Below, one piece after another: positions 44,738 through 63,943 of a DNA stretch of 64,000 nucleotides. This DNA comes from Phycisphaerales bacterium. Lineage in GTDB: Bacteria; Planctomycetota; Phycisphaerae; Phycisphaerales; UBA1924. The notes beneath the pieces are model-generated. The model saw nothing but the letters and a program-made list of their open reading frames with translations, made no database searches and had not been told where the DNA came from. Within the stretch, counting starts at the first letter, position 1, and each line of letters starts with the position of its first letter. The stretch lies in contig JAEPOJ010000021.1 of the NCBI GenBank assembly GCA_017642965.1, forward strand, positions 1-64,000, in the 5' to 3' direction. A program made the position numbers and the translations under genes.

Positions 44738-44775
44738 GGTGACTCCCATCGCGATCAGGATGATTTGGAAGATGA

Positions 44776-48690: not shown

Positions 48691-49160
48691 GCCGCCTTGA
48701 CCTCCAGAGCGACCTGACGCTTGCCGACCTTGCCGGTGACGGCGACGGTGGGCTTCGCGCTCGCAGCTCCCGCCTTTGCGGGTGTCGAGTGCTGCTTGGT
48801 CATCTTGCGACGTTTCGCGCAGGTGAGCAGCACCTTGCTGGTCGCGTCGTCCTGGGCGCTGCGCGATTCCTTGTCGCTGCCCTTGTGCCAGGCGAGCGCG
48901 TCGCTGACGAGCTTGTCCGGGTCTTCAGCGTTCGCCATGATGCCGCGCATCACGTCGTTTACGCTAAAGTCGACGACGGTGACCTCGGGACCGGCAGCGC
49001 TGCCCTTCTTGACGAGCAGCTCGCCGACGATCTGGGTCTTGATGTCGAAGGGGTACGAGCCGGGCTCAAGCTCGGCGGTGCCCTGCGATGCGACCTGCTT
49101 GGCGGCGGTCTGGAGCGCCTTGACGGTGATCTGGTTCTCGTGTTTCTTGGTCATCCGCAT
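48687..49160 (-). CDS. Late-operon protein, unknown
   Basis: A 157-aa protein with a near-consensus ribosome-binding site (AAGGAGG, 7 nt before ATG 49160). The first 100 residues look like a compact alpha/beta domain (YPFDIKTQIVGELLVKKGSA, TVVDFSVNDVMRGIMANAED), and the last 45 are basic, Ala/Lys-rich and probably disordered (RRKMTKQHSTPAKAGAASAK). The tail could bind nucleic acid. No family was recognised. It overlaps the next gene by GTGA. Confidence 0.62.
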   Translation of the reverse strand: MRMTKKHENQITVKALQTAAKQVASQGTAELEPGSYPFDIKTQIVGELLVKKGSAAGPEVTVVDFSVNDVMRGIMANAEDPDKLVSDALAWHKGSDKESRSAQDDATSKVLLTCAKRRKMTKQHSTPAKAGAASAKPTVAVTGKVGKRQVALEVKAA

Positions 49161-49274
49161 TCGGTTGCCTCCTTGCAATCCGTGGTGTGTTTTCTCAAAG
49201 CGGGGCGGGGATCATCGCGTCCGTGCTCCCCCCGCCCCGTCCTCTCCCGAGCGTGGTGTGGTGTAGTTCAGCGT

Positions 49275-49315
49275 GGGGGCGGGGTCATGGCGTCGAGTGA
49301 CGCTCACCCGCCCCC
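49275..49315. repeat. Inverted repeat between two late genes
   Basis: Perfect 9-bp arms GGGGGCGGG / CCCGCCCCC separated by 23 nt, with a possible inner GTCA/TGAC pair. It lies in the 165-nt gap between the 367-aa membrane protein and the 157-aa protein. There is no T run. Possible mRNA-processing hairpin. Confidence 0.45.
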
Positions 49316-49325
49316 GTTCCATGGG

Positions 49326-50429: not shown

Positions 50430-50787
50430 GATCGCCTCCATGCGACAACAGCGGCCCGAATCCATCCGGTGCCTGATATTCGTTTTGGTTTAGAACTTGC
50501 GTCTGCTGATGCCGGGCCAGACGCGCCGCGTCCTCGCGGCGGTTGATCCCGTACAGCACGGTGAGGCAGATTACGAAGATCGAGATCGCGACCCATTCGG
50601 AGCCAGGGAAATCCCAGAGGATCCGCTGGCGTTGCGGCTGCGGGTATGCAGTCCGGGTCGTGGATGAGAGGGGCGGGTTACCGCAGAGTTTGGGTTCGTA
50701 TTGCGGTTGCGCGGGCGCATGAGAACGCCCGGCGGCTTCATGCCTCCGAGCGTGTGGTGTGTTCGTCTTGTGGGTTCGCGTGTTCAC
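50404..50787 (-). CDS. Small single-TM protein, first gene of the late operon
   Basis: A 127-aa protein with a GTG start. The N-terminal 60 residues are His/Arg/Pro/Gln-rich and basic; one TM (EWVAISIFVICLTVLYGI) is followed by a short tail (INRREDAARLARHQQTQVLN). It overlaps the start of the next gene by 26 nt. It lies about 100 nt downstream of a consensus-like promoter on the same strand. Function unknown; small membrane proteins here could belong to lysis. Confidence 0.5.
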   Translation of the reverse strand: MNTRTHKTNTPHARRHEAAGRSHAPAQPQYEPKLCGNPPLSSTTRTAYPQPQRQRILWDFPGSEWVAISIFVICLTVLYGINRREDAARLARHQQTQVLNQNEYQAPDGFGPLLSHGGDHEQHTFAP

Positions 50788-50893
50788 GCCCCTGCATCCT
50801 TGAATCAGATGCAGAAACGCCCGCCTGAAGCTGAGACCGTCTTGATCCCGTTGTCCACCTCTCAGGCGCTAGCCCGAGTTCATTCGCGCTGGC

Positions 50894-50922
50894 AGCTTAA
50901 TCGGAACGAATTGTGTTGTCAA
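50894..50922 (-). promoter_or_regulatory. Probable late promoter
   Basis: On the minus strand a consensus -35 TTGACA (50917-50922) and -10 TAAGCT (50894-50899) with the optimal 17-bp spacer, reading leftwards into the late operon with a leader of about 100 nt. It looks like an ordinary sigma-70 promoter rather than one needing a Mu C-type activator. Confidence 0.6.
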
Positions 50923-50961
50923 GGTGAGTGTGAGATATCCACATCTGAATCAAGAAGTGCG

Positions 50962-51327
50962 TTACTGATTCTCGTCTACTTCATCAACTGACCAGATTGG
51001 CTCGATGATCTTCGTCGAGTTCTTATCCCTCTCATTGATGAGCATTTTCATCAACTCAAGCACTCTGCGTTTATCTAAGCCTTCTGGCGATTTGAACGTC
51101 TTCTGGAAGACGTACTTACAGATCGTGTCCCGATCAGTGCTATCTAGCGACATGAAGATCGCAAGCGCCGCTGTGCCAATCACCTTTACCCCGCCATTCC
51201 CAAACTCGCCTGCGGCTTCGCGTAGTTCCTCGCGCAGCCATTTCGGGATTTGAAGCCCCTGACCTTCCCATCCTTCTGGAATTTTGCCGTGGCGATTGCT
51301 GCGTTCTGTGGGCTTCTTTTTGGCCAT
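50962..51327 (-). CDS. Small basic protein divergent from the HTH regulator
   Basis: A 121-aa protein from ATG 51327. The N-terminus is basic (MAKKKPTERSNRHGKIPEGW). A ribbon-helix-helix- or helix-like core follows (LQIPKWLREELREAAGEFGN), then a helical C-terminal half (DRDTICKYVFQKTFKSPEGL, DKRRVLELMKMLINERDK). It lies divergent to the XRE regulator with the operator region between them, so it is a candidate regulator or antirepressor of the lysis-lysogeny switch. That role rests on position. No family was recognised. Confidence 0.6.
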   Translation of the reverse strand: MAKKKPTERSNRHGKIPEGWEGQGLQIPKWLREELREAAGEFGNGGVKVIGTAALAIFMSLDSTDRDTICKYVFQKTFKSPEGLDKRRVLELMKMLINERDKNSTKIIEPIWSVDEVDENQ

Positions 51328-51362
51328 GGTGCATTTTTTTCCCCAAATGGCATCGATGCCGG

Positions 51363-51420
51363 TTGACAAACCGATAACACCTCGGTTTGATGGAAGGCCG
51401 AGAATGGTTTGAAAACCATT
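51363..51420 (+). promoter_or_regulatory. Early promoter with two palindromic operators
   Basis: TTGACA (51363-51368), a 17-bp spacer and TTTGAT (51386-51391) form a sigma-70-like promoter. Operator 1, AAACCG-N9-CGGTTT (51368-51388), spans the promoter. Operator 2, AATGGTTT-GA-AAACCATT (51403-51420), lies just downstream. Both share the half-site AAACC(G/A), so one dimeric repressor probably binds both. Confidence 0.65.
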
Positions 51421-51446
51421 TGAAATCGACTATCGGGAATCATGTC

Positions 51447-51662
51447 ATGACCAACAGGATTCGAGAACGTCGGGAAAAGCAGGGTATTTCTCAACGAGAG
51501 CTTGCCGCCCGTGTCGGATTGGACCACAGGACCATCAGCAACTTCGAACGAGATCGCACCTCTCCGAAGATCTGTGATCTTGTGAAAATCTCTAACGCTT
51601 TAGGTACCCGTTTGGTTGATCTCCTTCCTGCTGAGTTACTGAAACCACCTCGTGCGGCTTAG
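51447..51662 (+). CDS. XRE/Cro-CI family HTH regulator
   Basis: A 71-aa single-domain HTH_3 protein: MTNRIRERREKQGISQRELA, then ARVGLDHRTISNFERDRTSP and the final helices ICDLVKISNALGTRLVDLL. The helix-turn-helix is complete and nothing else is attached, as in Cro/Ner-type phage regulators. It is the first gene rightward from the operator pair and probably binds it. It starts at ATG 51447 with GGGA upstream. It may be the repressor of the late or early promoter, or a Ner-like early repressor. Which of the two HTH proteins maintains lysogeny cannot be told from sequence. Confidence 0.85.
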   Translation: MTNRIRERREKQGISQRELAARVGLDHRTISNFERDRTSPKICDLVKISNALGTRLVDLLPAELLKPPRAA

Positions 51663-51680
51663 CCGCACTTCATCGCAACA

Positions 51681-51885
51681 GATGGGCAGAGATGCCCGTC
51701 TGAAGCTTCGACCCAGACGCCGACGCGAAGTGCTCGGCAAGCCAGGGCATTGATACACCGAGGTTCCCACGGGGCAAACGGTGAGCCACACCTTGGAGCA
51801 TGATGCGTCGCGTCTGGGTCACTGAACATCATCGCGACCTACGGACGGTTCGCGTAGCACATTCTCGGGTGACTTCGTGTCACCC
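51681..51885 (+). ncRNA. Strongly structured RNA candidate between two HTH genes
   Basis: Three elements in 205 nt without a gene. (1) Hairpin GATGGGCA-GAGA-TGCCCGTC with a GNRA tetraloop (51681-51700). (2) A long-range 16-bp stem with one bulge, 51710-51726 paired with 51805-51820 (GACCCAGACGC / GCGTCTGGGTC plus GACGC / GCGTC), enclosing about 78 nt that can fold further (CCGAGG / CCTTGG). (3) Hairpin GGGTGAC-TTCGT-GTCACCC (51867-51885) ending 18 nt before the next start codon. It could be a leader controlling the second HTH gene or a separate small RNA. No known RNA family was recognised. Confidence 0.5.
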
Positions 51886-51903
51886 ACGCGAGGGCATGAC
51901 GCC

Positions 51904-52410
51904 ATGAACGACCACCAAGAGATCAGCGTCATGCAATACCACAACACCATCGCCGCCCGCGTGCTCGACCGCCACGACCTCACTCAGGATCAGCTCGCAC
52001 GCGAAGCGCAGATCGACCCATCACATCTCAGCCGCATGCTTCGCGGCGAACGGACCCTCTCTCCCGAGGTGCTCCGGGCTCTGTTGAAACTGACACGAGA
52101 CCCGGAGCTCCTCGCTGCCATCACCGGCGAACCAGGCATCATCTATCTCTACAACGCCGAAGGCGACGGCGATCCAGGCGAGCTCAAAGCCAACTGCGTC
52201 GTCTCCCTCGCCTACATGCTCAACCAGTGCCACACGCCGATCAGCAGCGACGATGACCGCATGCGGCGCGTCGCGGATATCGACCAGACGATGAGCGCAC
52301 TCGCGTCCATGCGGAGCAGCCTGCTCAGCTCACCCCTTCCCTCAACCCAGCAACCCCGCGAGCGTCGGACGGTCAAGCACCCGCCCAACGTGCTCGATGA
52401 GGTTGCGTAA
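51904..52410 (+). CDS. Phage HTH regulator (XRE-type N-terminus)
   Basis: A 168-aa protein. An HTH occupies about residues 10-65 (ARVLDRHDLTQDQLAREAQI, DPSHLSRMLRGERTLSPEVL, RALLKLTRDPELL). The remaining 95 residues contain a small domain of unknown role and a disordered Ser/Pro/Arg-rich C-terminus. The start is ATG 51904 with GAGG upstream. It is the first of a closely packed run leading to the transposase, so it is a plausible CII- or Ner-like regulator of early transcription. The preceding 240 nt are strongly structured. Confidence 0.72.
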   Translation: MNDHQEISVMQYHNTIAARVLDRHDLTQDQLAREAQIDPSHLSRMLRGERTLSPEVLRALLKLTRDPELLAAITGEPGIIYLYNAEGDGDPGELKANCVVSLAYMLNQCHTPISSDDDRMRRVADIDQTMSALASMRSSLLSSPLPSTQQPRERRTVKHPPNVLDEVA

Positions 52411-52430
52411 CCCATGCGGAGACCTAGCCA

Positions 52431-52760
52431 ATGAAATCGGAACTCACCCCCCTCGCGAGAGAGCTCAGCGAACATCTCGAAGACATCAAAGCGATGTTCC
52501 GCGAGGAGCATCACCCGCAAGTCGTGATCGTGGTCATGAACGACCACAGCCACGAGGAGCACGATCGAGATCTCGTCATCGGTGACCTCCAAGATCGTGA
52601 GCGAGTGATCCACACGATCCGAGCGCTGGACCCCGAGCCGTTCAGCCCGGAAGAGGTAGAACCCAAGGCGCACCTACTACCAAAGCGTCAACCCAAGGCC
52701 CCCGGCCCGGACATCGACATCGAGTTCACCATCCTCAATCGGAAGGGAGCCTTGGTGTGA
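52431..52760 (+). CDS. Early-operon protein, unknown
   Basis: A 109-aa acidic protein. An N-terminal helix (LTPLARELSEHLEDIKAMFR) is followed by a strand VVIVVMNDHSHEEHDRDLVI and a Pro-rich C-terminus ending in a strand (DIDIEFTILNRKG). It lies 20 nt after the HTH gene, and its stop overlaps the next start (TGATG). No family was recognised. The tight spacing marks it as part of the early operon. Confidence 0.65.
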   Translation: MKSELTPLARELSEHLEDIKAMFREEHHPQVVIVVMNDHSHEEHDRDLVIGDLQDRERVIHTIRALDPEPFSPEEVEPKAHLLPKRQPKAPGPDIDIEFTILNRKGALV

Positions 52761-53179
52761 TGATGAACACTTCAAAGCCGAATGTGCCGGTCAGCACGAC
52801 CGAGCAGCCCAAGCCCGGCCCGCTCGCCTCCTCGGTCTCACGGGGCAAGTACCTGGAGCTGACTCCCGCAGAAGAAACCGTGCTCGCGATGCTCGACCGG
52901 TTCGCCCCCAGCGGCAGCCCCGCCGCGTGGCCCTGCGACTTCGATTCCATGATCCGCCTCGCGGAGCAGAAGCCCAGCATCGCCCAGGACAAGCTCATCG
53001 GCGCACTGGTCAAGCTTGCCAGCAAGCACATCATCGACTACCAGCTCGCCGTCGTTGATGGCAAACTCCAGATCTGGGTGAGCCAGTGGGCGCACCGAGC
53101 ACGCCTCCGCCACGAGCTGCTCACCCTCCTGCACAGCACCACCAAGCGCGTCAGCGCGGTCCAGTTCCCAGCCGCATGA
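52760..53179 (+). CDS. Early-operon protein with winged-helix-like domain
   Basis: A 139-aa protein. After a disordered N-terminus (about 30 residues), helices TPAEETVLAMLDRFAPSGSP, FDSMIRLAEQKPSIAQDKLI and LVKLASKHIIDYQLAV with a following hairpin (VVDGKLQIWVSQW) look like a winged helix. It overlaps the transposase gene by ATGA, so it is translationally coupled to it. It may assist or regulate transposition. This is an inference from fold impression and context. Confidence 0.62.
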   Translation: MMNTSKPNVPVSTTEQPKPGPLASSVSRGKYLELTPAEETVLAMLDRFAPSGSPAAWPCDFDSMIRLAEQKPSIAQDKLIGALVKLASKHIIDYQLAVVDGKLQIWVSQWAHRARLRHELLTLLHSTTKRVSAVQFPAA

Positions 53180-55401
53180 CCGCACTACCGATCCATCGCG
53201 AGCAAACCACCGATCAGGAATGGATCCCGATCGATGACTGCGCCGAGCTGCTCGGCAAGTCCGAGGGCAACCTGCGTCGAGTCTGTGACAAACAGCTCGC
53301 GCCCAAGGGGCAGGCCAAGAAGGTGCTCTGCGGTGGCACCTACAAGTGGCACATCCATACCAGCTACTCGCCGCGCCTGCGCCGATGCAGTGTCGAGGCC
53401 GATGCCGAGGGCAGGTCAAAGCTCCGTGAGCTCATGGAGACGATGCCAGCTGACAAGATCGAGCAGGCACAGATCGATGCCCAGATCGTGATCGCGTTCC
53501 GCCAGTTCCGGGCCAAGAACCCCACGAGCCGGATTCCGGCATTCCAGGCAGCGATGAAAGAGAAGTACGGTCGCTGCCCAGGCAAGACCCGCCTCTACGA
53601 CATGGACAAGAACTCGCCCGCGTCTGACGATATCGAAGGCATCGTCTACGAGGTGATCGATCGACGCGGCCGCAAGAAGGGGGACATCCAGACCTGCTCG
53701 GAAGCCGCATGGCAGTTCTTCTGCGCTCTCTACCTCCACCCCAATCAACGCTCGCTCGCCAAGTGCTGGAGGCACACCAAGGAGCACGCCAAGCAGGAGC
53801 GATGGGCGTGGCCTTCAGAGCGTCGCGTCTACCAACTCGTCCAGGAGCGGATCGACCCTTCCATCCTTTGCCTCAAGCGTGAGGGGCACGACGCCTGGAA
53901 CCGCAAGTTCCTTGCCCCCATGGAGCAGGATCCCAATGCCTGGGAAGTGGGCCAGTGCTGGGAGTCAGACCACTCCGTCTTTGACTTCCACATCCGCGTG
54001 ATCAAGGGCGGTAAGTGGACCCGCACCCGACCGCAGCTCACATCGTGGATGGATCGACGCACCCGGCTCATCACCGGCTACCACGTGAGCGAGCAGGGCA
54101 ACCAGTTCACCATCCGCGCCGCGCTGCTCAACGCGCTCAAGAACCCGGAGATCTCCTCGCCCGAGATCGTCTGGCTCGACAACGGTAAGGACTTCATGGC
54201 GCAGTCGATCGGCGGGCTCACCAAGAAGCAGCGACGGGCGATCCCCAAGGACGAACGCGAGGAGTACGAACGCTCATCCACCGGACTCCTCGCGATGCTC
54301 GATATCACCCCGCACTTCGCTGCCCCGTACAACCACGACGGCAAGGCACGCATCGAGCGATTCCACGGGACGATGCACGGCGAGTTCGACAAGGACTTCA
54401 CAAGCTACTGCGGCAACAAGCCGGGCATGCTCGACAAGCTCGCGCACCAGGCGACGCAGGGTGACGTGATGAACCTCCCCACTCTCGAGGAAGTCCGCGA
54501 GCTGTTCGACGGGTTCATCGCCTGGTACAACACCCGGAGCGAGCACCGCATCGACGATCTCAAGGATCCCGACACCCTCGAACGCTTGAGCCCGATACAG
54601 TTCTACGACCGTCACCTCCCCACCAAGCGGGTGGTGAGCCGCGATGCGCTCAAGTACCTCGAGCCCGTCTGGTCGCGCCCGCTGAAGGTGCAGAAGAACG
54701 GGATCGCCGTCGCAATCGGGGGCGGCACCGTACGCTTTGGCGATACCGAGGTGGCCCTTGAGCCCTTCGTTGGATCCGACCGGCGCGTGTACGTGAGCTG
54801 GGATCCGGACGACACCACCCAGGTCACTGTCTGGGACGAGGACTTCAAGTTCGTCTGCAACGCGATGGAGAACAAGCGCTATGGCGGGCTCGCGAGCGAT
54901 CGCGTCACGGTCCAGGACCGTCGGGCAGGCTTCGGCGAACGCCGCGCCCAGAAACGCCGCGTGAAGCAGCGCGCCGACCTCATCACCCTCACGCTCGACA
55001 ACGCCGAGCTCGCCTCCCGCGAGACACGCAAGCGCGAAGTCGCCGAAACGCAGGCCCGCCTCGAGGCCGAGCGTCGTGACCGTGATCCCAACGACACACC
55101 GCCGCTCCGCCTCGTGCGTACGCGGCTCGACGATGCGCCCGACGACATCGAGGAGAACAAGCACCGCAAGGCTGCGGGAGCGGAGCACTACGAGGATCCG
55201 GACGACTGCGGATCCATCATCGACGCAGCGCGGGATCTTCACCTAGGCGAGGAGTCCGACTTCAGCTCGACGTCGCTGATCAGCTCAGATCTCGATATCG
55301 AGCACGACGAGTTCGCGGGCGGGAGCTTGTGTGACCACGACGAGCTCGACTTTGAAACCGAGGCGATCGAGAGCGATCTCCGCATCATGGATCACCTCTG
55401 A
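53176..55401 (+). CDS. MuA-type DDE transposase
   Basis: A 741-aa transposase. An N-terminal winged HTH (PIDDCAELLGKSEGNLRRVC) corresponds to the MuA DNA-binding part, then further helical DNA-binding domains. The RNase H-like core holds the catalytic triad D265 (CWESDHSVFDF), D335 (VWLDNGKDF) and E394 (GKARIERFHGTMHG), almost the same positions as in MuA (269, 336, 392). The Mu-type beta-barrel follows (VAIGGGTVRFGDTEVALEPF). The basic segment RRAQKRRVKQR near residue 595 and an acidic C-terminal tail of about 100 residues complete it. The tail probably contacts the ATPase encoded next (TGATG overlap). All catalytic residues are present. Confidence 0.93.
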   Translation: MTALPIHREQTTDQEWIPIDDCAELLGKSEGNLRRVCDKQLAPKGQAKKVLCGGTYKWHIHTSYSPRLRRCSVEADAEGRSKLRELMETMPADKIEQAQIDAQIVIAFRQFRAKNPTSRIPAFQAAMKEKYGRCPGKTRLYDMDKNSPASDDIEGIVYEVIDRRGRKKGDIQTCSEAAWQFFCALYLHPNQRSLAKCWRHTKEHAKQERWAWPSERRVYQLVQERIDPSILCLKREGHDAWNRKFLAPMEQDPNAWEVGQCWESDHSVFDFHIRVIKGGKWTRTRPQLTSWMDRRTRLITGYHVSEQGNQFTIRAALLNALKNPEISSPEIVWLDNGKDFMAQSIGGLTKKQRRAIPKDEREEYERSSTGLLAMLDITPHFAAPYNHDGKARIERFHGTMHGEFDKDFTSYCGNKPGMLDKLAHQATQGDVMNLPTLEEVRELFDGFIAWYNTRSEHRIDDLKDPDTLERLSPIQFYDRHLPTKRVVSRDALKYLEPVWSRPLKVQKNGIAVAIGGGTVRFGDTEVALEPFVGSDRRVYVSWDPDDTTQVTVWDEDFKFVCNAMENKRYGGLASDRVTVQDRRAGFGERRAQKRRVKQRADLITLTLDNAELASRETRKREVAETQARLEAERRDRDPNDTPPLRLVRTRLDDAPDDIEENKHRKAAGAEHYEDPDDCGSIIDAARDLHLGEESDFSSTSLISSDLDIEHDEFAGGSLCDHDELDFETEAIESDLRIMDHL

Positions 55402-56498
55402 TGGGTGGTGATCGCGACAACCCGAGAGACAAGAGTCTCGTCAATCAGGCCGCGAAGGAGTCGCGGGCTATGGAGGCAAGGATGCTGCCAACCTCTGGAG
55501 AGCTGACGCAAGAGCAGCTCGACTACGTGCGGAAGCGCGTAGACGAACGATGCGATGAGCAGTCGCTCAACTACGAGCAGATCGACAAGAAGGTCGGCGT
55601 CTCACGCAAGGCCGTCAGGCGGTTCATGGAGGACCGCTACGAGCACAACGACACAATCATCGCCCGCAAGCTCGATCGCTGGCTCCGGGGCTCCGAGGGC
55701 GGCGTGGGCGAGATGCCAGGGCAGTACGTCTCCACTGACGTCGCTGAGAAGATGATCGGCGTGATCAAGCAGATCTACCGCCGCAAGTCGATGGGGGCGA
55801 TCGTCGGCCCATCCGGGACCAGCAAGACCACTGTGCTCAAGGCACTCGAAGTGTTGATCCCCAACGCGGTACACATAGAGTTCACGCACGCGGACGGCTC
55901 ACCCTCCACCGTGCTGCGCCGCCTCTCCGCCGAGCTGGGGCTCAACGATCGCTACACCACCTACCGCATGATGCAGAACTTGATGAAACTGCTCAAGGAC
56001 AGCGATCGCCTCATCATGCTCGACGAGGTCCACTACCTGGGCAAGAAGGCGATGAACATCCTTCGCGACATCCATAAGCAAACGGGCTGCCCGATCGTGC
56101 TCGTGGGCACCCAGGACCTCCTTGAAACAATCGACGACTTCGATCAGTTCCACGGGCAGATGAAGTCGCTTGTATCCATGACCTACAACATCACCGCCGA
56201 GTGCATGGCCACCGGCGAGCCGCTCTACAGCGTGGACGACATCAAGAAGTACGCGGCCGAGATGAAGATCAAGATCGATCTCTCCGGCGCGGATTTCGTC
56301 GCGTCGCTCGCGAGCACGCTCGGCTGGGGCGGGCTCCGCAGCGCCGCGTACCTGCTCCTCAACGCGAACATGCTCGCCAAGGACAAGACGGTCACCCTCA
56401 AGCACCTGAACTCTGCCCTGCGTGAGATGGAAGGCTACGACGGCTTCCAGCGGACCAAGCAGAAGCAGACCCAGAGCAGGAAGGCAGCGGTCGCATGA
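55401..56498 (+). CDS. MuB-type AAA+ target-selection ATPase
   Basis: A 365-aa protein. An N-terminal HTH (NYEQIDKKVGVSRKAVRRFM), as in MuB, precedes an AAA+ domain with Walker A GPSGTSKTT, Walker B RLIMLDEVHYLG, a sensor motif CPIVLVGTQDLLETI and a C-terminal helical domain (SLASTLGWGGLRSAAYLLLN). In Mu-like phages this ATPase coats target DNA, activates the transposase and gives target immunity. It is translationally coupled to both neighbours. Confidence 0.9.
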   Translation: MGGDRDNPRDKSLVNQAAKESRAMEARMLPTSGELTQEQLDYVRKRVDERCDEQSLNYEQIDKKVGVSRKAVRRFMEDRYEHNDTIIARKLDRWLRGSEGGVGEMPGQYVSTDVAEKMIGVIKQIYRRKSMGAIVGPSGTSKTTVLKALEVLIPNAVHIEFTHADGSPSTVLRRLSAELGLNDRYTTYRMMQNLMKLLKDSDRLIMLDEVHYLGKKAMNILRDIHKQTGCPIVLVGTQDLLETIDDFDQFHGQMKSLVSMTYNITAECMATGEPLYSVDDIKKYAAEMKIKIDLSGADFVASLASTLGWGGLRSAAYLLLNANMLAKDKTVTLKHLNSALREMEGYDGFQRTKQKQTQSRKAAVA

Positions 56499-57070
56499 GC
56501 TGGACAGAGAAGCAACAGAAGCTGGTGATCGTCGCGACGCGGCTCGCGGGCTGGAACATCCTACAACGCTACATGGTGATGAAGCACTGCGGCTGCCCGA
56601 TCGATCGCGAGACCGGTCACCCATCGACCAAGCACGAGCGGAACACGAACCAGCAGTTCGCGATGTTCATGAGCTACGCCGAGCCGGTCGCCCGCGATCG
56701 CGGCAAGCCCCTGCACCCACCCCGCGGCCACGCGTCCTGGGAAGCCGTTGTCCGCGACGACGCGCACCGCCTGCGTGAGCGCGCCCATCGGATCATGCTT
56801 GAGGCGATCGAACGGGTGCCGAGCAAGTACGACGGTGGCATGGAGCAGTACGTGGTCCGCCACGTGTACAAGTGCGATCAGTCGGAGAGCGGTGCCGGGT
56901 TCCTGGAGTACGAGCCCGAGAACTTCTCGCAGTGTGATGCGCCGACGCTGGTCCGCTGCATCGAGTGCATGCGGGCGTTTGTCGGCCGCGAGTTTGAATC
57001 ACGCGGGATCAAGCCGCAGTCGTTCGAAATCCCCAGGAAGGCAAGGGAGCGGGCGAGGCGAGCGAGTTAA
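56495..57070 (+). CDS. Early-operon protein, unknown (GemA-like position)
   Basis: A 191-aa helical protein overlapping the ATPase gene by ATGA. It starts WTEKQQKLVIVATRLAGWNI, similar in feel to the first helix of GemA/gp16-type proteins, but the rest does not match. It contains Cys residues spread along the sequence (KHCGCP, YKCDQ, SQCDAP, IECM), which might bind zinc, and a basic C-terminal helix (RKARERARRAS). Role unknown; the position suggests replication or regulation. Confidence 0.6.
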   Translation: MSWTEKQQKLVIVATRLAGWNILQRYMVMKHCGCPIDRETGHPSTKHERNTNQQFAMFMSYAEPVARDRGKPLHPPRGHASWEAVVRDDAHRLRERAHRIMLEAIERVPSKYDGGMEQYVVRHVYKCDQSESGAGFLEYEPENFSQCDAPTLVRCIECMRAFVGREFESRGIKPQSFEIPRKARERARRAS

Positions 57071-57110
57071 GCAACCGAGTAACCAACCGCCCGAGTGCAT
57101 GGAGGCACGG

Positions 57111-57623
57111 ATGGCACCCATCGAAGATGACTACGACCAAATGAGCTTCGCTGACTTGGACCACCTGCCCAAGCCGGGCCGTCGCGTACACGACCTGGGG
57201 ATCCGTGTGATTGAGTCCACGTCGTCACCCAACACACCCTCGCCCGAACGCAACCGCAAGGTGCTCAAGCTGCGCTGGCTGCTTTGGACGTACGTGCGCA
57301 TCCATGAGGTTGGCCACGAGTTCCAAGCGATCGACTTCTCTCACTGGGCAGCTGCTCAGCCGCAGTATGACGACGACATCGATCTGCGCAGCTCGGGCGG
57401 GATGTTTCGGACGATGGTCAATGCGGGCGTCCTGGCGCAGATCGGCTTCAGGAACAACGGCGGCAACAAGGACACCGGCTACCACGGCACACCACGTGCC
57501 GTGTACCGCACCGCGCACCTGGACTACTCGCTGCTCGGCTGGCCCGAGGACCTCTCAGGCATCGAGCAGGACGGCGTATGGACCGACGACGTCCCACCTA
57601 GGAGAAAGGGGGACGCAGCATGA
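57111..57623 (+). CDS. Early-operon protein, unknown
   Basis: A 170-aa protein whose ATG at 57111 has GGAGG 5 nt upstream. A winged-helix-like central domain is suggested by KLRWLLWTYVRIHEVGHEFQ, FSHWAAAQPQYDDDIDLRSS and GMFRTMVNAGVLAQIGFRNN. The N- and C-termini are disordered and charged. Last gene of the early operon: its stop lies 2 nt from the stop of the convergent cargo gene. It may be a transcription activator of the late promoter (Mor/C position), but no Mor signature was recognised. Confidence 0.6.
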   Translation: MAPIEDDYDQMSFADLDHLPKPGRRVHDLGIRVIESTSSPNTPSPERNRKVLKLRWLLWTYVRIHEVGHEFQAIDFSHWAAAQPQYDDDIDLRSSGGMFRTMVNAGVLAQIGFRNNGGNKDTGYHGTPRAVYRTAHLDYSLLGWPEDLSGIEQDGVWTDDVPPRRKGDAA

Positions 57624-57625
57624 GA

Positions 57626-57949
57626 CTACTGAATTTCATATGCGTGAATGAAACAAAGTGCTCCCCTTCCGGACGGAAAACTGATCTCTACTACTGCACC
57701 TCGTGGAACAAATATGCCGCCAACCTGAGAATGTGGATTCGAGTAAGCAAGCTGGTGATTGCCCGCCGGCAACTGAAAACTCGTTTCTCCATGAATCCGA
57801 ACATTGACGAACTCTGTGTTGGATATATACAAGATTACTGCGTCATGCGTTTTACTTACAGGACGAGAAGTATTGGGATCCCAATTGCCTGTGATCGTCT
57901 TTATGGGCGTGCCGGGGTTCAGTGTTTCACTCGAGTTTTGTGCTGCCAT
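57626..57949 (-). CDS. Small beta-type protein, unknown
   Basis: A 107-aa protein called because of an excellent ribosome-binding site (AAGGAG, 5 nt before ATG 57949) in low-GC surroundings. Its sequence alternates short strands (AVILYISNTEFVNVRIHGET, FQLPAGNHQLAYSNPHSQVG, VPRGAVVEISFPSGRGALCF), giving a compact beta domain with PEGA-like features. No signal peptide. It is the first cargo gene, oriented against the early operon. Function unknown. Confidence 0.6.
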   Translation of the reverse strand: MAAQNSSETLNPGTPIKTITGNWDPNTSRPVSKTHDAVILYISNTEFVNVRIHGETSFQLPAGNHQLAYSNPHSQVGGIFVPRGAVVEISFPSGRGALCFIHAYEIQ

Positions 57950-58108
57950 GTTGTCTCCTTAGGTGTACGAGGACTTGACTGTACTTCTTTGTGTCACACA
58001 GCCAAAGGTTTCAGAAAACTGGCATCAAATCTTACACCGCGTTCAATTCCCATCAAATTAGGGGGGAGGCAAGAAAGTCAACAACGAGCGCCGAGTGTGG
58101 GCAGGATG

Positions 58109-58337
58109 AAAAAAAGGCACCGGCCTCGGTGACTTTTGGGGCGAGGCCGGCACCAGTGGAGCGCAGCCAGCAGAAGCCGAGCTGCACTTTGTTTTCAAAG
58201 GGAGTTTCGAAGATACCACAAAGCACGATCGGAGCCAGTGGGCTTCGGATGAAAATAGAAAGAATCTCACCACGCAAGGAGGCGTGGCTGAGACTCAAAA
58301 AAGGAGTGGGGCCGGGCGCGGGAACGCCCGGCACCCC
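58109..58337 (-). ncRNA. Structured intergenic region with two terminator-like hairpins
   Basis: The 473 nt between the beta-type gene and the methyltransferase carry no convincing gene. On the minus strand, GGTGCCGGCCTCG / CGAGGCCGGTGCC followed by seven T (58109-58154) and a GC-rich hairpin followed by six T (58297-58337) look like intrinsic terminators. Between them lies a third hairpin, CTCACCACGC / GCGTGG(C)TGAG, with AAGGAG in its loop (58266-58292). No protein gene upstream on that strand needs them. A short minus-strand RNA of about 150 nt ending at 58109 is the simplest reading; a leader of the plus-strand methyltransferase is the alternative. Confidence 0.42.
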
Positions 58338-58422
58338 TGACGACGGCCAGCCTAGAAGCAAAAACCGTCGCCAACCGAGGATATGAGCATGGAAGCGAAG
58401 TATCTCAATGAAGAAGGAATCA

Positions 58423-59100
58423 ATGCAGCGTCTCGTCAAGGGGGACGCGATGGTCAAACTGCGCTCGGTGAAGACCGAGAGCGCTCAGCTGGTCCTGACG
58501 GACCCACCGTACGGGATCGGGTACACGTCCAGAACCGGTGTCAGGATCAAAAACGACGAGCACCCGTTCATCTGGTGGATGCACGACGCATTCCGGATCT
58601 GCAAGCCGGGCGGGGGCATCCTCTGCTTCACCAGATGGGATATTCAGGACAGCTTCAAGCTCGCCCTGGAGTCCGCGGGCTTCAAGATCCGCTCACAGAT
58701 CGTCTGGGACAAAGGGGGAGGCGGCAAGGGCGACCTTCGGGCTCAGTTCAGTCCGCGTCACGAGCTGATCTGGTGGGCGACAAAGGGGCGGTTCGCGTTC
58801 CCAGACAAGCGACCAATGAGCGTGTTCCCGATCGCCAAGCCATCAAACCACAAACGCACACACCCGACCGAGAAGCCCGTCGAGCTGCTCTGCCAACTGA
58901 TCAACGCGACCACCCGGTCAGGCGACCTAGTCGTCGATCCGTTCTCTGGTACTGGCTCCTGCGGTGTGGCATCGACGCTCTGCGGAAGGCGGTTCTTCGG
59001 AGTCGAGCTCAACGCCAAGTACGCGATGATCGCTCGCCGACGCATCGCGTCAGCCCGAGGAAACACGTACGACGGCTCGCGCAAGTCAACGGAGTTCTGA
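58423..59100 (+). CDS. DNA methyltransferase, beta class (N4-C or N6-A)
   Basis: A 225-aa SAM-dependent amino-methyltransferase. The target motif IV DPPYGIGY comes near the N-terminus and the SAM motif I VVDPFSGTGSCGVA near the C-terminus, the order of the beta class. A motif X-like helix (HPTEKPVELLCQLINATTRS) lies between them. Start ATG 58423 has AAGGA upstream and gives MQRLVKGDAM, the usual opening (G-D-x-M) of such enzymes. There is no partner endonuclease, so it is an orphan, probably protecting phage DNA or modifying host sites. The target-recognition region (about residues 90-125) is short. Confidence 0.85.
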   Translation: MQRLVKGDAMVKLRSVKTESAQLVLTDPPYGIGYTSRTGVRIKNDEHPFIWWMHDAFRICKPGGGILCFTRWDIQDSFKLALESAGFKIRSQIVWDKGGGGKGDLRAQFSPRHELIWWATKGRFAFPDKRPMSVFPIAKPSNHKRTHPTEKPVELLCQLINATTRSGDLVVDPFSGTGSCGVASTLCGRRFFGVELNAKYAMIARRRIASARGNTYDGSRKSTEF

Positions 59101-59109
59101 GTGCGCATG

Positions 59110-59136
59110 AAAAAACCCGCGACTCGCAGGCGCGGG
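59110..59136 (-). terminator. Terminator of the cargo sigma-kinase operon
   Basis: On the minus strand CCCGCG / CGCGGG with a 9-nt loop followed by six T, 8 nt after the last cargo gene's stop. Confidence 0.8.
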
Positions 59137-59144
59137 CATTGGTG

Positions 59145-59426
59145 TCAAATCGAGAGATTGTTGATGAATCTTCGGAATCGAGAATGCTTGATTCTCAAGA
59201 GCTCATCTTGCTTCTCCTTGCGGAGTTGCTCGATGCGGCCAGTCGTTCGAGAGATCGAATCCTCGATCAACTGCTGCGCCTCACGCTTCTGAACTTCAGT
59301 CAGTTCTGCCTTGATCTTCGCTGCCTTCTTGTGACCCATTCGAAACGTCGCTTTCCGTTTCACGCCCAGCTTCATCTCGGTTACCACCGCTGGTGGGCGA
59401 TTCACTCGCTTGTCTTTCGGGTTCAT
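59145..59426 (-). CDS. Small basic coiled-coil protein, last gene of the cargo operon
   Basis: A 93-aa, strongly basic protein. The ATG at 59426 follows GAGAGGG by a few nt. A basic N-terminal part (MNPKDKRVNRPPAVVTEMKL, KRKATFRMGHKKAAKIKAEL) is followed by a coiled coil (EVQKREAQQLIEDSISRTTG, RIEQLRKEKQDELLRIKHSR). Its first 131 nt overlap the end of the upstream membrane-protein gene in another frame. The downstream terminator supports its being the real end of the operon. It could bind nucleic acid or the membrane proteins' tails. Confidence 0.6.
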   Translation of the reverse strand: MNPKDKRVNRPPAVVTEMKLGVKRKATFRMGHKKAAKIKAELTEVQKREAQQLIEDSISRTTGRIEQLRKEKQDELLRIKHSRFRRFINNLSI

Positions 59427-60042
59427 CATCGGCCCTCTCATCTACGCACTTTAATCGATTTGGGTTGTCGATTATTGCCTGTCTTGGTGAGAAAGTATCG
59501 GACATTGTCGCAAGAACCAAACACAGAAAGGTGGCTCCAAGCCAGAATGCCCCCATTTTCAGGTGCTCAGATACGGTTCGGTTGGCCTGCGCCAGTTCGT
59601 AAGTGGCCAGCCGTCGGAGCTGAGTTTTCAACATTAAAGCACTTTCAGGATGGATCTCTCCCTGATGCAGTGCTTTGACTTCATCGTTCGAAATGTCCGC
59701 GTACTCCGACGCACGCGTCTTGGTGTAGCCGCTCGCTTTGCGGATCGTGCCGCCTTTAAAGAGGTAGTGAACAGACGTTATCAAACAGATCACAGCGAAG
59801 AAGATGAACGTTTTCACAAATCCGATCGTGATGTCCGGCTTGACCTGAATGAATTTCGGGTCGGCGTAGAGCTCGATTTTAAACACGCCGAGTCCGACGA
59901 TCAGCGCGAGCAACGTGGTGTACATCTTGCGGCGATCACGAAGAGTCTCAGCGTACTCAACCTCATCATCCCAGCGAAGCTGACTGATTTCGTTGCAGAC
60001 CTTCGTCGCCAGATAGCTCCGATCCAGATTGTCATCATCCAT
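59296..60042 (-). CDS. Three-TM membrane protein (SLATT-like layout)
   Basis: A 248-aa protein from ATG 60042 (AAGGG upstream). Charged N-terminal helices (SQLRWDDEVEYAETLRDRRK) precede two TMs (MYTTLLALIVGLGVFKIELY, FVKTFIFFAVICLITSVHYL). A cytosolic helical region of about 65 residues, a third TM (MGAFWLGATFLCLVLATMSD) and an acidic, disordered C-terminal tail follow. The two close TMs after a charged helix resemble SLATT-type membrane effectors found in conflict systems, but no certain match was recognised. Part of the cargo operon between the one-TM protein and the small basic protein. Confidence 0.66.
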   Translation of the reverse strand: MDDDNLDRSYLATKVCNEISQLRWDDEVEYAETLRDRRKMYTTLLALIVGLGVFKIELYADPKFIQVKPDITIGFVKTFIFFAVICLITSVHYLFKGGTIRKASGYTKTRASEYADISNDEVKALHQGEIHPESALMLKTQLRRLATYELAQANRTVSEHLKMGAFWLGATFLCLVLATMSDTFSPRQAIIDNPNRLKCVDERADDEPERQASESPTSGGNRDEAGRETESDVSNGSQEGSEDQGRTD

Positions 60043-60053
60043 GCGTATGCCCT

Positions 60054-60620
60054 TCAGACTGACGGAAAACTCAGCTTTGAATCAGACGGATCCCAGCCGT
60101 CAATAGAATGTAGATACTTGGTTGCTCGCATGATTGAGCTGGCTGTGTCTACCCATTTCAAATTTGCTTCATCTGCTAGTTCGTTCGACAAAGGCACTTC
60201 CGCTTGGATACTGTCGGCGATCACGCCATGGAATGCCCGAAATTTGATATCTAGATCATTCATACACTCTTCCCACCCAGAGGTATCCAGTTGAACTCTA
60301 CAGAGCTTCAACTTTGCAATAGCCGTAGATGTCGCGATGAGATACGGCAGCCAATGCTGCCGTCTAGTTTTCTCACCGGTAGCATCGTATCGATTAACCA
60401 CCGCAATCATGTACTGCTGATGAACCTCGTACACGCTGCTGATCAACTCAGAGAAAGAGTTTCTTATCATGCTCATCCTCACATCGACTTGACGGCATCG
60501 ATACAAAAAATGAGCTATATAAAGCGTGAGGACACTACCGAGAAAAAGAGAGCCGATGGCAACAGAGATATTCAGCCAAAGACCGCTAGATCCAATCTGA
60601 GCATTACTGAGCATAATCAT
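60054..60620 (-). CDS. Single-TM protein with helical cytosolic domain
   Basis: A 188-aa protein whose ATG overlaps the kinase stop (ATGA). One N-terminal TM (SVAIGSLFLGSVLTLYIAHF) is followed by about 150 residues of predicted helices (QVDVRMSMIRNSFSELISSV, QHWLPYLIATSTAIAKLKLC, DLDIKFRAFHGVIADSIQAE). No family was recognised. Co-translation with the kinase suggests that the two products act together at the membrane, for example as substrate, anchor or sensor. Confidence 0.66.
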   Translation of the reverse strand: MIMLSNAQIGSSGLWLNISVAIGSLFLGSVLTLYIAHFLYRCRQVDVRMSMIRNSFSELISSVYEVHQQYMIAVVNRYDATGEKTRRQHWLPYLIATSTAIAKLKLCRVQLDTSGWEECMNDLDIKFRAFHGVIADSIQAEVPLSNELADEANLKWVDTASSIMRATKYLHSIDGWDPSDSKLSFPSV

Positions 60621-62254
60621 GGACTTTCCCCCTCGCTTGAACCATGGATCATATCCAACTTCAAAGACTCAACCAGAGGATCATGTTCACCTAACTTGCT
60701 GACCAAGAGCGTCTTGGCTTGCTCGAACGAGCTCCTATACACCTCTTCTTTACGCCCAGCTGCTCGCTCAACCTTCGCAAGCAACCACCACCAGTATGCA
60801 ACTGTGATCCGAGATACAGAGGCGTCGCGAGTATGCGATTCTACTTCACTCCGAAGCATCATCTCACCATCCATTGTCGTCAAAGCGGCATACGACCAGA
60901 CTTCCCACTCTGGAACCACTTTGCTTAGCTCAATGATCGCCCAGTATGTTGCGGGGTTTAGTTCGCCATCACGCAAACGGGCATCGAGGATGGTCTTCTG
61001 GAACGTACCCTTCATCTCCTCCACCTGCATACGGAGCAAGTGTCCCTGCTTAACCTGCTCTCGCTGGTTGAGAATCGTTGTCAGGAGCACCGCTAGGACA
61101 ACAAATAGGCCCAAGAGACCGATCGCATTGCGACGCGCAAACAGAGCTGTTCGAGTACCAACCTGCTGCTTTGGCAGACCAGAACCCCTGAAGTGCTTCA
61201 AGTCAACGAGTGCGATCCGGATTGCCTCCGCAGACTGGTATCGATCAGCTGGCCTGCGAGCCAAGCATCCTTTCAGGATGTGTCGGATGCGTTTGGGCAC
61301 CTTACTGAGATCAACCTCGTCCTTGCTGGCAAGGAACGCAAGTGCCATTGCGTCGCTGTTCCCGTTCGGGTACTCCCCGGCGAGAAGGAAGAACGCGACC
61401 GCACCGATGCCGTATATGTCAACGAGCGTCGAGTCCGCGTCGTGCGTCAGCTGCTCGGGTGCCATGCACTTCGGCGATCCCGCAACACTCTGGTCATCAT
61501 CCGCGTGCGCGGCGATCCCGAAGTCCGCGATTACTGGTCGCCCCTTAAGCATAATGATATTCGACGGCTTCAGGTCGCGGTGCACGATGGGGAGCGTATG
61601 AATGGCTTGCACACCCAGGCAGATCTGCATCAGGATCTCGATCACCTCGCTCATCCGAGGTGTGTGCTTAGGTGCCCACTCTTCAAGCGTCGGCCCGTCG
61701 AGATACTCGTACACGATGTACGAGACCGGGCTCCCATGGAGATCGACGTCGTGATCGTGAACGCGGACAACATTCGGGTGGTCCATGCTTTGAACTCGGA
61801 CACTTTGGACAGCGTCGGGGTTCTTGTGGATCTTGATCGCCACGTGGGATCGGTTCGCGGTCCTGAACTTCCGATCGACTGCGCGGTAGACCCAGCCTTG
61901 GGAGCCTTGAGCAATCAACGCCTCAATTCGGTAGCGACCCTTGCCATCAGTCAGAGTGGGACCAAAGTACGCACCCTCATGAAGCTGTTCACGCGGCTGC
62001 CTGATCAGTGCTCGGCGATTCGACTCGGCGACGATCGCTGCCCGAAGTTCATCATCAACCAGGTCAGGAAGCTCTCGCTCGATGTGCTCGATCGCTTCGC
62101 GGCCTTGTGTTTGCGCGATGATCATCTCGGTGTGTTCGATCCAGACATGCAGTACATCGCGGACAATGACTTGATCGGAAGGCTCTCGATTCCTCAGGAC
62201 CTCCTCGATCGCCTCGCCATTTGCAAGCTGGTCTTCGTAACGCGGATCGATCAT
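60617..62254 (-). CDS. Membrane-anchored Ser/Thr protein kinase (prophage cargo)
   Basis: A 545-aa eukaryotic-type kinase. A helical N-terminal region of about 100 residues precedes the kinase domain: glycine loop IAQGSQGWVYRAVD, VAIKIHK with the Lys, HRDLKPSNI catalytic loop, ADFGIAAH metal motif and MAPEQL. All catalytic residues are present. A TM (AIGLLGLFVVLAVLLTTIL, near residue 355) leads to an extracytoplasmic helical domain of about 170 residues, probably a sensor. The gene overlaps the sigma factor gene upstream and the membrane-protein gene downstream (ATGA both). Kinase-sigma pairs are common in planctomycete chromosomes, but here the pair lies inside a prophage. Phage 933W Stk is a precedent for a prophage kinase acting in exclusion. 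Confidence 0.88.
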   Translation of the reverse strand: MIDPRYEDQLANGEAIEEVLRNREPSDQVIVRDVLHVWIEHTEMIIAQTQGREAIEHIERELPDLVDDELRAAIVAESNRRALIRQPREQLHEGAYFGPTLTDGKGRYRIEALIAQGSQGWVYRAVDRKFRTANRSHVAIKIHKNPDAVQSVRVQSMDHPNVVRVHDHDVDLHGSPVSYIVYEYLDGPTLEEWAPKHTPRMSEVIEILMQICLGVQAIHTLPIVHRDLKPSNIIMLKGRPVIADFGIAAHADDDQSVAGSPKCMAPEQLTHDADSTLVDIYGIGAVAFFLLAGEYPNGNSDAMALAFLASKDEVDLSKVPKRIRHILKGCLARRPADRYQSAEAIRIALVDLKHFRGSGLPKQQVGTRTALFARRNAIGLLGLFVVLAVLLTTILNQREQVKQGHLLRMQVEEMKGTFQKTILDARLRDGELNPATYWAIIELSKVVPEWEVWSYAALTTMDGEMMLRSEVESHTRDASVSRITVAYWWWLLAKVERAAGRKEEVYRSSFEQAKTLLVSKLGEHDPLVESLKLDMIHGSSEGESP

Positions 62255-62754
62255 GCGCGTCTCGATTCAATGTGCGCGCGGATCTCTCGCTTGCAATCGG
62301 CGATCCGGGTTCGGACTGTCGAAGCCTTCATGCCCATCTGGTCTGCGATCTGCCGTGAGCTGAACCCCTTGCAGTACTGCTGGAGGATCGTCCGTTGACC
62401 TGTATCGAGCATCAACATCTCGTTGATCGTCTCAACGACGAGCTCCTGCTCGAGATCGGGGAAGTCGATGCTCGCAAGCCGCAGCATGATCTCCTTCTGC
62501 TCGCGCTTGAATTGCTCAGACTTCGCCTTTCGAGCGTGATCGATGGAGGCGTTGGTCATCACCCGGTTGGTGTAAGCGCAGAACTCGTCCGTCGAGCTGA
62601 AGCGGTCTGCGTCGGGCAGCTCGCCCATTCTCCGGCACGTCGTCGAGACCAGCTCGTGCGTGTCGGTGTGGTGGTTCTTCCTGGCGATCCGGCTTGCATG
62701 CGTCCGGAACCATCCGAACCTTGCAGCGATGAACTCAAGATCACGAATCCCCAT
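62251..62754 (-). CDS. ECF-like sigma factor (prophage cargo)
   Basis: A 167-aa sigma-70-type factor with regions 2 and 4 only. Region 2 includes EFCAYTNRVMTNASIDHARK. Region 4 is the HTH block RTILQQYCKGFSSRQIADQM followed by KASTVRTRIADCKREIRAHI. It is the first gene of the cargo operon, and its stop overlaps the kinase start (ATGA). The kinase may phosphorylate it, or it may drive the operon itself. A low-GC promoter-like stretch (TTGTGT-N16-TACAAG) lies directly upstream on the minus strand. Confidence 0.82.
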   Translation of the reverse strand: MGIRDLEFIAARFGWFRTHASRIARKNHHTDTHELVSTTCRRMGELPDADRFSSTDEFCAYTNRVMTNASIDHARKAKSEQFKREQKEIMLRLASIDFPDLEQELVVETINEMLMLDTGQRTILQQYCKGFSSRQIADQMGMKASTVRTRIADCKREIRAHIESRRA

Positions 62755-62948
62755 GGTTCGGCCATCTTACTTGTAATTTTTCTCAAACACAACACAACAG
62801 GGGGGTACTCGGCTCCGCTCTATTTGCATGGGAACCATGTTTTCGCTCCGATGCCTACAAGCTGTTTCTTTGCAGGCCGATTTGACTCGGATCTGTGGCA
62901 GACGTGTCGTACCGCGAATCACCCAGTTTCTCCGATTGAAGAGGCATG

Positions 62949-62969
62949 GGCTCACCGTAGTGGTGAGCC
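62949..62969 (+). repeat. Perfect 8-bp hairpin upstream of the Cys-rich secreted protein
   Basis: GGCTCACC-GTAGT-GGTGAGCC, about 30 nt before the ATG at 63000, just upstream of the ribosome-binding site. There is no T run. Possible 5'-UTR control element or operator in the 245-nt divergent region. Confidence 0.45.
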
Positions 62970-62999
62970 ATCTACACCTCCCAAAAACGGAGATCCATC

Positions 63000-63344
63000 A
63001 TGTTCATTGCTACAGCTGCCGTTGTCGCAGTCCTCCATTTCTCAGGCGGCCAGCAGCCCGCTGGACCCACTTGCCAAACAGCACCGGATGGTGCACCTCC
63101 ACAAGTCGTCGATTGCTACGACATCGAATGCAAGCTTTACAGAGACGCTTGGAACGCATGCTCGGACTCGGACTGCCGAGCAGCGGCGGCTGCGGCATAT
63201 GCATTCGCGATTGGTGAGTGCTGGGAAGGGTACCTACAGCAAGTCAGTCATGACTCGTGGGTCACGCTCTGGTACGCGGGCGATGAGTTCGGGGTTTCAT
63301 ACGACAACAGCATCCCGGTCGGCGCACACGCCTTCCTCTTCTGA
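63000..63344 (+). CDS. Small secreted Cys-rich protein
   Basis: A 114-aa protein with GGAG 7 nt before the ATG. A short signal peptide (MFIATAAVVAVLHFSGG) is followed by about six Cys in a pattern CQ...DCYDIEC...NACSDSDC...GEC, then a domain ending VPVGAHAFLF-like (IPVGAHAFLF). The Cys spacing suggests disulfides outside the cytoplasm. It is divergent from the sigma-kinase operon and may be a lysogenic-conversion gene. No family was recognised. Confidence 0.66.
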   Translation: MFIATAAVVAVLHFSGGQQPAGPTCQTAPDGAPPQVVDCYDIECKLYRDAWNACSDSDCRAAAAAAYAFAIGECWEGYLQQVSHDSWVTLWYAGDEFGVSYDNSIPVGAHAFLF

Positions 63345-63417
63345 TCCTCGAACGCCACAAGGCACGGAGGGCGGCTGGGAGGCTAGCCGTCCTCAGATTC
63401 GACAAGGTGATAGAGAG

Positions 63418-63840
63418 ATGGACGCAAGGACGCAGACGCAGCTGAGGAAGCTCACGGAGCAGCATGCCCCGCACCTCACCGCCGCACTCGACGAGCTGAT
63501 CCTACAGACGCCCCGCCTGGCCGATGGGAGCATCCACGACCCACGTGAGCCCGTCTTCCATGCGAGCACAGCATCCGATGACTATCCACCGCTCCAATTG
63601 GGGTTCACTCCGTCACTCGGCTACCACGTGATGGTGTTCCAGGATCTTCCTGATGGACCCAGCCTGATCCGTTACCCGATCGCAGACTGTGATCGATCAC
63701 CTGAAGCAAGCGAGCAGCGTCGGCGCGCAGCGCGCACCAAAGGCGCACACCCGATCCCGCTTGTCGGCTTGAGATCCGCAATCCCGTCCGGATTCAAATC
63801 GCGCACTCTTGATCACGCGACCGGTTTTCCCGCATTTTGA
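63418..63840 (+). CDS. Hypothetical protein near the right prophage end
   Basis: A 140-aa protein from ATG 63418. An N-terminal helix (RTQTQLRKLTEQHAPHLTAA) precedes a mixed region with QLGFTPSLGYHVMVFQDLPD and a basic C-terminus. A longer upstream reading in the same frame passes antisense through the sigma gene and is not accepted. Last gene before the right end of the prophage. Function unknown; moderate confidence that it is translated. Confidence 0.5.
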   Translation: MDARTQTQLRKLTEQHAPHLTAALDELILQTPRLADGSIHDPREPVFHASTASDDYPPLQLGFTPSLGYHVMVFQDLPDGPSLIRYPIADCDRSPEASEQRRRAARTKGAHPIPLVGLRSAIPSGFKSRTLDHATGFPAF

Positions 63841-63920
63841 GTTCTGGCCCGACGGCTCGCGTAAACGCTGACCATACCGAGATATACCGCAATACGTCGC
63901 TATACGAAGGCTCTTCCGGT

Positions 63921-63938
63921 ATTTCCTTGCGGCTCATG
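63921..63938 (-). repeat. Right prophage end (inverted repeat)
   Basis: Read inwards on the minus strand this is CATGAGCCGCAAGGAAAT, matching the left end CATGGTCCGCAACAAAT at most positions. It is followed by CCGGAAGAGCC, as in the left-end repeats. CCACGC follows outside at 63939. Confidence 0.6.
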
Positions 63939-63943
63939 CCACG
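63939..63943. repeat. Right copy of the target-site duplication (CCACG)
   Basis: Same five bases as at 28995-28999, directly outside the right inverted repeat. Confidence 0.6.

Follow-up and report, generated by a model that had tools for sequence, protein, structure and literature searches.

Why would a prophage carry a sigma factor together with a kinase that might control it, and what could such a pair do for a lysogen? The question is raised by a stretch of 64,000 nucleotides from a Phycisphaerales bacterium (GenBank assembly GCA_017642965.1, contig JAEPOJ010000021.1, positions 1 to 64,000; G000:C13:1-64000, on a contig of 69,772 bases, in our numbering of genomes and contigs), which we refer to as the window. 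Near its right end, on the minus strand, the genes for an ECF-type sigma factor, a transmembrane (TM) Ser/Thr kinase, a one-TM protein, a three-TM protein and a small basic protein lie in a row that we call the cassette. We tentatively favour the reading that a transposable temperate phage carries it as an accessory operon of the moron type, in which a kinase-gated sigma factor would drive genes acting at the membrane, and hold this reading to be somewhat short of probable.

The cassette lies inside a transposable prophage

The prophage carrying the cassette spans 34,939 bp (29000..63938). It is bordered by a target-site duplication (TSD) CCACG with its left copy at 28995..28999 and its right copy at 63939..63943. 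The termini, CATGGTCCGCAA and CATGAGCCGCAA, are inverted and match at 13 of 20 positions, and within the window exact CATGNNCCGCAA is confined to the two prophage ends. When the window was compared with relatives by blastn, left-flank DNA ended at about 28939–28954 and right-flank DNA started at about 63951. Both flanks lie 54–71 bases apart in genomes G200 and G216, which thus represent empty sites; in G212 a distance of 2.8 kb separates the two flank genes, and only G216 and G200 are counted as empty sites. TSD, termini and empty sites therefore place the cassette in the phage. Together with the gene positions this bears out an earlier note on this DNA, which had placed the cassette close to the right end of a prophage and apart from the genes for virion and transposition: those for tape measure, minor head and terminase lie further to the left, transposase A is encoded at 53086-55401 (phrog_310, 2.8e-75) and the ATPase B, a DNA transposition protein, at 55401-56498 (phrog_296, 1.8e-38). 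With A and B genes, a 5-bp TSD, inverted ends and a non-fixed site the element is Mu-like. Of 301 genomes of the order, 19 encode a relative of the transposase or, in the genome of the window, the transposase itself.

A sibling prophage of 33,062 bp was found in G212, a genome of the same genus, at another locus (TSD TCAGG; transposase A 60%). Its ends start with CATG and are alike at 12 of 14 positions, and it matches 30 of the 40 listed phage ORFs of the window; the five cassette genes are all missing from it. Alignment with this sibling by blastn defines a variable slot (59025..63690) between conserved phage DNA, namely a methyltransferase region to the left (58298-59024, 80%) and the phage right end (63691-63940, 70.5%). 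The slot holds 4.67 kb in the window versus about 1.95 kb of other genes in G212. The cassette thus behaves as a moron, being replaced between conserved flanks in a related phage, as seen in one sibling. Host DNA lying beside the prophage had also been considered, and is ruled out by the termini, the TSD and the right end of the sibling. From the 25 other transposase matches we fetched 16 loci (14 genomes), several of them truncated by the contig on the downstream side; a phmmer search found a kinase relative at only one of them, G260:C49, beside an ECF sigma gene. We tentatively read that pair as host flank.

Layout and composition of the cassette

All five minus-strand ORFs are real, as the earlier note had described them. 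The sigma factor (62251..62754, 167 aa) was recognized by Pfam and by alignment with kinase-paired sigma factors, and the kinase (60617..62254, 545 aa) by Pfam, hydropathy, catalytic residues and a single-sequence model; both pass their Pfam cut-offs. They are followed by the one-TM protein (60054..60620, 188 aa), defined by hydropathy with an N-terminal hydrophobic stretch at about residues 9–38, the three-TM protein (59296..60042, 248 aa) and the small basic protein (59145..59441, 98 aa, net charge +15), none of which reaches a Pfam cut-off. The genes were said to be joined by ATGA overlaps or short gaps. This holds for the sigma/kinase (62251-62254) and kinase/one-TM junctions, which are ATGA overlaps, and for the 11 bp between the one-TM and three-TM genes. 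It fails for the last junction, where the three-TM and small genes share 146 bp in different frames. Within this overlap the GC pattern is coding-like for the small gene (0.54/0.42/0.67) and not for the three-TM frame (0.67/0.56/0.42). That the small ORF is an artefact of the overlap was rejected on account of this coding-like GC and of small basic ORFs at the same place in relatives.

Behind the cassette a terminator-like hairpin followed by a T-run is located at 59131-59115 on the minus strand. The earlier claim of an own terminator is matched by a candidate site; taken alone the match is weak, as 10 such sites were observed in the region versus 5.6 expected. The GC content of the cassette is, as proposed, lower than that of the host (0.537 versus 0.65 for the host flanks), and also lower than that of the prophage core (0.631); the minimum among 3.6-kb windows outside 57000-63944 was 0.591 (n = 5561). 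The cassette is oriented opposite to the phage early genes. Upstream of its sigma gene we detected no sigma-70-type promoter-like match.

Sigma factor and kinase resemble pairs of the host's family

The sigma factor consists of regions 2 and 4 only, as in ECF-type factors. It matches Sigma70_ECF (4.5e-7; 30.4 bits, cut-off 21.1) and, also above cut-off, Sigma70_r4_2 (5.3e-7), and stays below the cut-off of Sigma70_r2 (17.8 against 24 bits). Its sigma2.2 motif reads DTHELVST, with Ser-Thr replacing the canonical Gln-Glu. At this position 13 of 17 kinase-paired sigma factors, the present one included, show ST, two AT and two HE. No phage record matches the sigma factor at 0.01. Upstream of chromosomal sigma genes of the genus (L002, L015, L016, L017, L019 and L020) we noticed by eye a rough element of TGCCC, 8–10 bases and GTGGnCGC, which could be an autoregulated promoter of these genes.

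The kinase shows a Pkinase match (8.7e-32) with the domain at residues 108-345, a predicted TM segment at about 377–395, the hydropathy maximum (2.76), and about 150 residues beyond it. No Pfam domain was found in this C-terminal part. It is modelled as helical, with a pLDDT of about 70–89 only around residues 461-530; the single-sequence structure predictions were poor (means 55.9 and 43.4). The catalytic residues K141, H225-R226-D227, N232, D244-F245-G246 and the APE glutamate E267 are kept, and Lys141, Asp227, Asn232, Asp244 and Glu267 are present in all 28 aligned kinases.

In the own genome the kinase has 11 matches, itself included. Among 100 other relatives' genomes the nearest kinase, 40% identical over its full length, is solitary on a contig of 5,446 bases (G202:C75), on which no sigma gene was found. 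The next-nearest kinases, from the same genus (33–39%), mostly lie behind a sigma gene. A tree of 28 kinases joins the phage kinase to the G202 kinase with support 100/99 and places both in a 20-row clade, all from the host's family (100/99); as the rows are the top hits of one search, the limits of this clade are only as wide as the sample. The chromosomal pairs of the genus and family, such as the own copy in G000:C30, share with the cassette the sigma2.2 ST motif and the order sigma gene, then kinase gene, and over the kinase and TM region their kinases show 36–39% identity. They differ in lying outside this prophage, and a phmmer search of their roughly 4-kb loci gave no relative of the one-TM, three-TM or small protein. 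The sigma factor and the kinase of the cassette are members of an ECF-sigma/kinase subfamily found in the host's family.

The best 80 of 588 hits in a kinase-alignment scan of genome contigs were all generic kinase-domain matches (28–35%). Kinase domains were found in 32 phage records, none over 80% of the protein, and the six of them that we examined gave one marginal ECF profile match (0.051). Single-protein pattern scans of IMG/VR with the kinase, three-TM protein, one-TM protein and transposase, which reach close relatives only, returned no relative.

The three-TM and small basic genes form a second module

The one-TM protein has no match in the others of the 301 genomes of the order, in phage records at 0.01 or, by pattern, in IMG/VR contigs. 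For the three-TM protein, 198 genomes of the phylum gave no match besides itself and the 301 genomes of the order gave six other relatives; a profile search extended the family to 16 of 400 genomes of the order, that of the window among them. A pattern scan of genome contigs, reaching close relatives only, found no relative, and the alignment profile run against PDB sequences gave a best E of 0.025.

Directly 3' of the three-TM gene a small basic ORF of 54–73 aa is present in all six first relatives, counted without a chance control. In a second batch of ten loci a similar small ORF was seen in L149, L150, L152, L153 and L155, and was doubtful in L156–L158; L151 and L154 stop at the three-TM gene. 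We thus noticed an unnamed three-TM family (L126–L131, L149–L158) scattered over the order, mostly with a small basic ORF behind. In G284 (L156:8100-12896) a three-TM-like gene stands directly behind the gene of a 1387-aa kinase. By sequence comparison the three-TM and small basic genes are a separate pair, standing alone on other chromosomes. The expectation that the five genes co-occur as a cassette elsewhere was not borne out: that they form one conserved unit is ruled out by the three-TM/small pair standing alone, the solitary nearest kinase and the unmatched one-TM protein. Nor did we see the opposite case raised in the earlier note, a fixed chromosomal locus made up of these five genes.

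Sigma-kinase pairs on other viral records

A scan of IMG/VR with the kinase alignment gave 65 kinase loci. In three an ECF sigma gene, confirmed by Pfam PF07638, lies directly upstream on the same strand; the remaining 62 showed no strong ECF match and five weak ones (0.0028-0.045). In IMGVR_UViG_2936165592_000001 (54,785 bases), which also carries a serine integrase, the sigma gene and that of a 1281-aa WD40-repeat kinase (L263:5740-9585) have the portal gene on one side and the gene of the terminase large subunit on the other, and this pair is certainly inside a prophage. In IMGVR_UViG_3300048589_001590 the pair, with a 931-aa TPR kinase, is located at about 15.7-19.1 kb, flanked on one side by integrase, Sak4, helicase and primase genes (1.6-11.4 kb) and on the other by a DNA methylase gene (25.2-26.5 kb), and is probably inside a prophage. 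In IMGVR_UViG_3300048837_002094 the pair occupies about 22.2-26.1 of 26.56 kb at the contig end, with portal and tape-measure genes at the opposite end, and may lie inside the phage or next to it; a second sigma-region-2 protein (L317:6893-7516; PF04542, 3.4e-8) is encoded near this pair. A second scan using these kinases returned the same three and one kinase without an ECF match.

These pairs resemble the cassette in that an ECF sigma gene stands directly upstream of a large kinase gene on a viral record. They differ in the phage type (serine-integrase phages, with an integrase in two of the three records, versus a transposable phage), in sigma2.2 motifs of the ALVHEAY, ALVNEAW and ALVHDAY type versus DTHELVST, and in the kinases, which are 931-1281 aa long and contain TPR or WD40 repeats. 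No match to the three-TM family was found at their loci. That unrelated temperate phages repeatedly capture complete kinase-gated ECF switches from their hosts, as envelope-sensing morons that would redirect the host polymerase, is possible but rather doubtful; the window and IMG/VR would then provide two independent lines. Carriage of such a pair by a transposable phage with three partner genes, which the earlier note had called unusual, is so only in part, given the three IMG/VR loci, one of them certainly in a prophage.

Relation to known systems

Known ECF-kinase pairs include EcfP/PknT of Vibrio parahaemolyticus and EcfK/PknS of Xanthomonas citri (ECF43), in which, as in the cassette, the ECF gene adjoins that of a transmembrane Ser/Thr kinase and the sigma2.2 region contains Thr/Ser (PMC8999054, PMC13147305). 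For ECF43 it was shown experimentally that the neighbouring kinase phosphorylates the sigma factor, which lets it bind core polymerase (PMC13147305, PMC8999054, PMC8103513). The ECF43 pairs described there are chromosomal, whereas the cassette pair lies in a prophage with membrane-protein genes behind. The ECF43 members given lose the acidic DxxD (STTA, QATE), whereas the cassette sigma factor keeps D and E (DTHE) and has ST in place of QE. The kinase-linked planctomycete groups ECF59, ECF61, ECF62 and ECF217 are tabulated under phosphorylation (PMC8999054). They share with the cassette a sigma factor with a neighbouring kinase; the named members of these groups are, as far as that source describes them, chromosomal.

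The prophage 933W kinase, cited in the earlier note as a precedent, is a tyrosine kinase that is expressed in the lysogen and aborts infection by HK97 (PMC3564112). It is a precedent for kinases encoded by prophages and not for a sigma-kinase pair: it is described there as co-transcribed with the repressor, and no sigma partner is mentioned. Among open-licence papers, searched by title and opening of the abstract, none dealt with an ECF-kinase pair carried by a phage. Both sigma-kinase pairs and morons are already known.

Proposed working and alternative explanations

If the cassette is an accessory operon as we favour, a sigma-kinase pair of the host's family would have been joined to membrane-protein genes from elsewhere. 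The membrane kinase, with its helical domain predicted to lie outside the cytoplasm, would respond to an envelope signal in the lysogen and phosphorylate the co-transcribed sigma factor in or beside sigma2.2, where the Ser-Thr is the natural candidate site. Phosphorylated sigma factor would then bind core RNA polymerase and transcribe the operon that encodes it and perhaps other genes of host or phage, and the one-TM, three-TM and small basic proteins, raised in amount, would act at the membrane to the putative benefit of the lysogen.

Several observations weigh against this working. The helix-C glutamate of a standard Hanks-type kinase is replaced by Gln150, whereas all 27 other aligned kinases have Glu, and the first glycine of the glycine loop (position 115) is Ala versus Gly in five of five. 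Because of these two losses the kinase, which the earlier note had called active-looking and whose catalytic residues are mostly kept, may be weak or dead. The sigma factor retains D and E, both acidic, in DTHE, and DTHELVST lacks the uncharged replacement of the acidic DxxD that defines ECF43. The factor is thus not the fully uncharged form, is not placed in ECF43 and may bind core polymerase unphosphorylated. The TGCCC/GTGGnCGC pattern has no match in the window, which leaves autoregulation through the same promoter type unsupported. Finally, the six first three-TM relatives have no worthwhile sigma or kinase match within 17-18 kb.

The loss of the helix-C glutamate is also the best argument for regarding the cassette as passenger DNA, decaying or without a selected function, in which a host pair was picked up and the kinase is losing activity. 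The loss of the glycine-loop residue, the foreign composition and a sibling that lives without the cassette fit this idea as well. We nevertheless consider it unlikely, as all five reading frames remain open, both ATGA couplings are preserved and the five invariant catalytic residues of the kinase are kept. A superinfection-exclusion or abortive-infection module, in which an infecting phage triggers the kinase to phosphorylate targets in the cell, or the membrane proteins block entry, while the sigma factor only regulates expression, would agree with the location in an accessory slot of a phage and with the action of the 933W kinase. Among PADLOC models the kinase matches PD-T4-6 (9.5e-44) and mad6 (1.1e-39) best, but these matches span residues 103-354, the kinase domain only, which matches 35 models and thereby identifies the protein as a Ser/Thr kinase and no more. 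The other four proteins gave no convincing PADLOC match (best 0.00061), and the related chromosomal kinases adjoin sigma genes, not defence genes, in the loci examined; this explanation appears unlikely.

Distinctly unlikely, in our view, is a role in prophage control or host takeover, with the sigma factor redirecting the host polymerase to phage or host genes at induction and the kinase reporting the envelope state. There are known cases of phage sigma factors changing the programme of the host (PMC9429907), and the early and late blocks of this phage, which diverge, require a regulator. The sibling phage, however, manages without a sigma factor, and the cassette has its own orientation and a terminator-like site; no shared promoter element emerged.

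Other features of the prophage

Next to the slot, the phage DNA methyltransferase gene (58408-59100) has relatives in the same region of related prophages (L098, L108, L112). Low-GC orphan ORFs without a Pfam match are located at 57626-57949 and 63000-63840 in the right part of the prophage, and the one at 63000-63344 has, judged by eye, a start like that of a secreted protein. Only 24 bp separate the right TSD from the start codon of metG (63939-63968), and 717 bp of the former metG upstream region remain left of the prophage. As a second full-length metG was not found in the genome, metG may depend on a promoter in the phage right end. Alignment of the phage terminase against IMG/VR gave one short contig only.

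Implications

Sigma-kinase pairs are a known, little-studied route from an outside signal to a new transcription programme. How phosphorylation activates sigma factors that keep the acidic sigma2.2 residues is named as an open question in reviews (PMC8999054), and the cassette, with one sigma factor, one kinase and three outputs, is a compact natural system for this. If phages do carry whole pairs, one portable module would let a prophage both monitor the envelope and reprogramme its host, and phages would be a route by which signalling pairs spread, which would explain part of their scatter.

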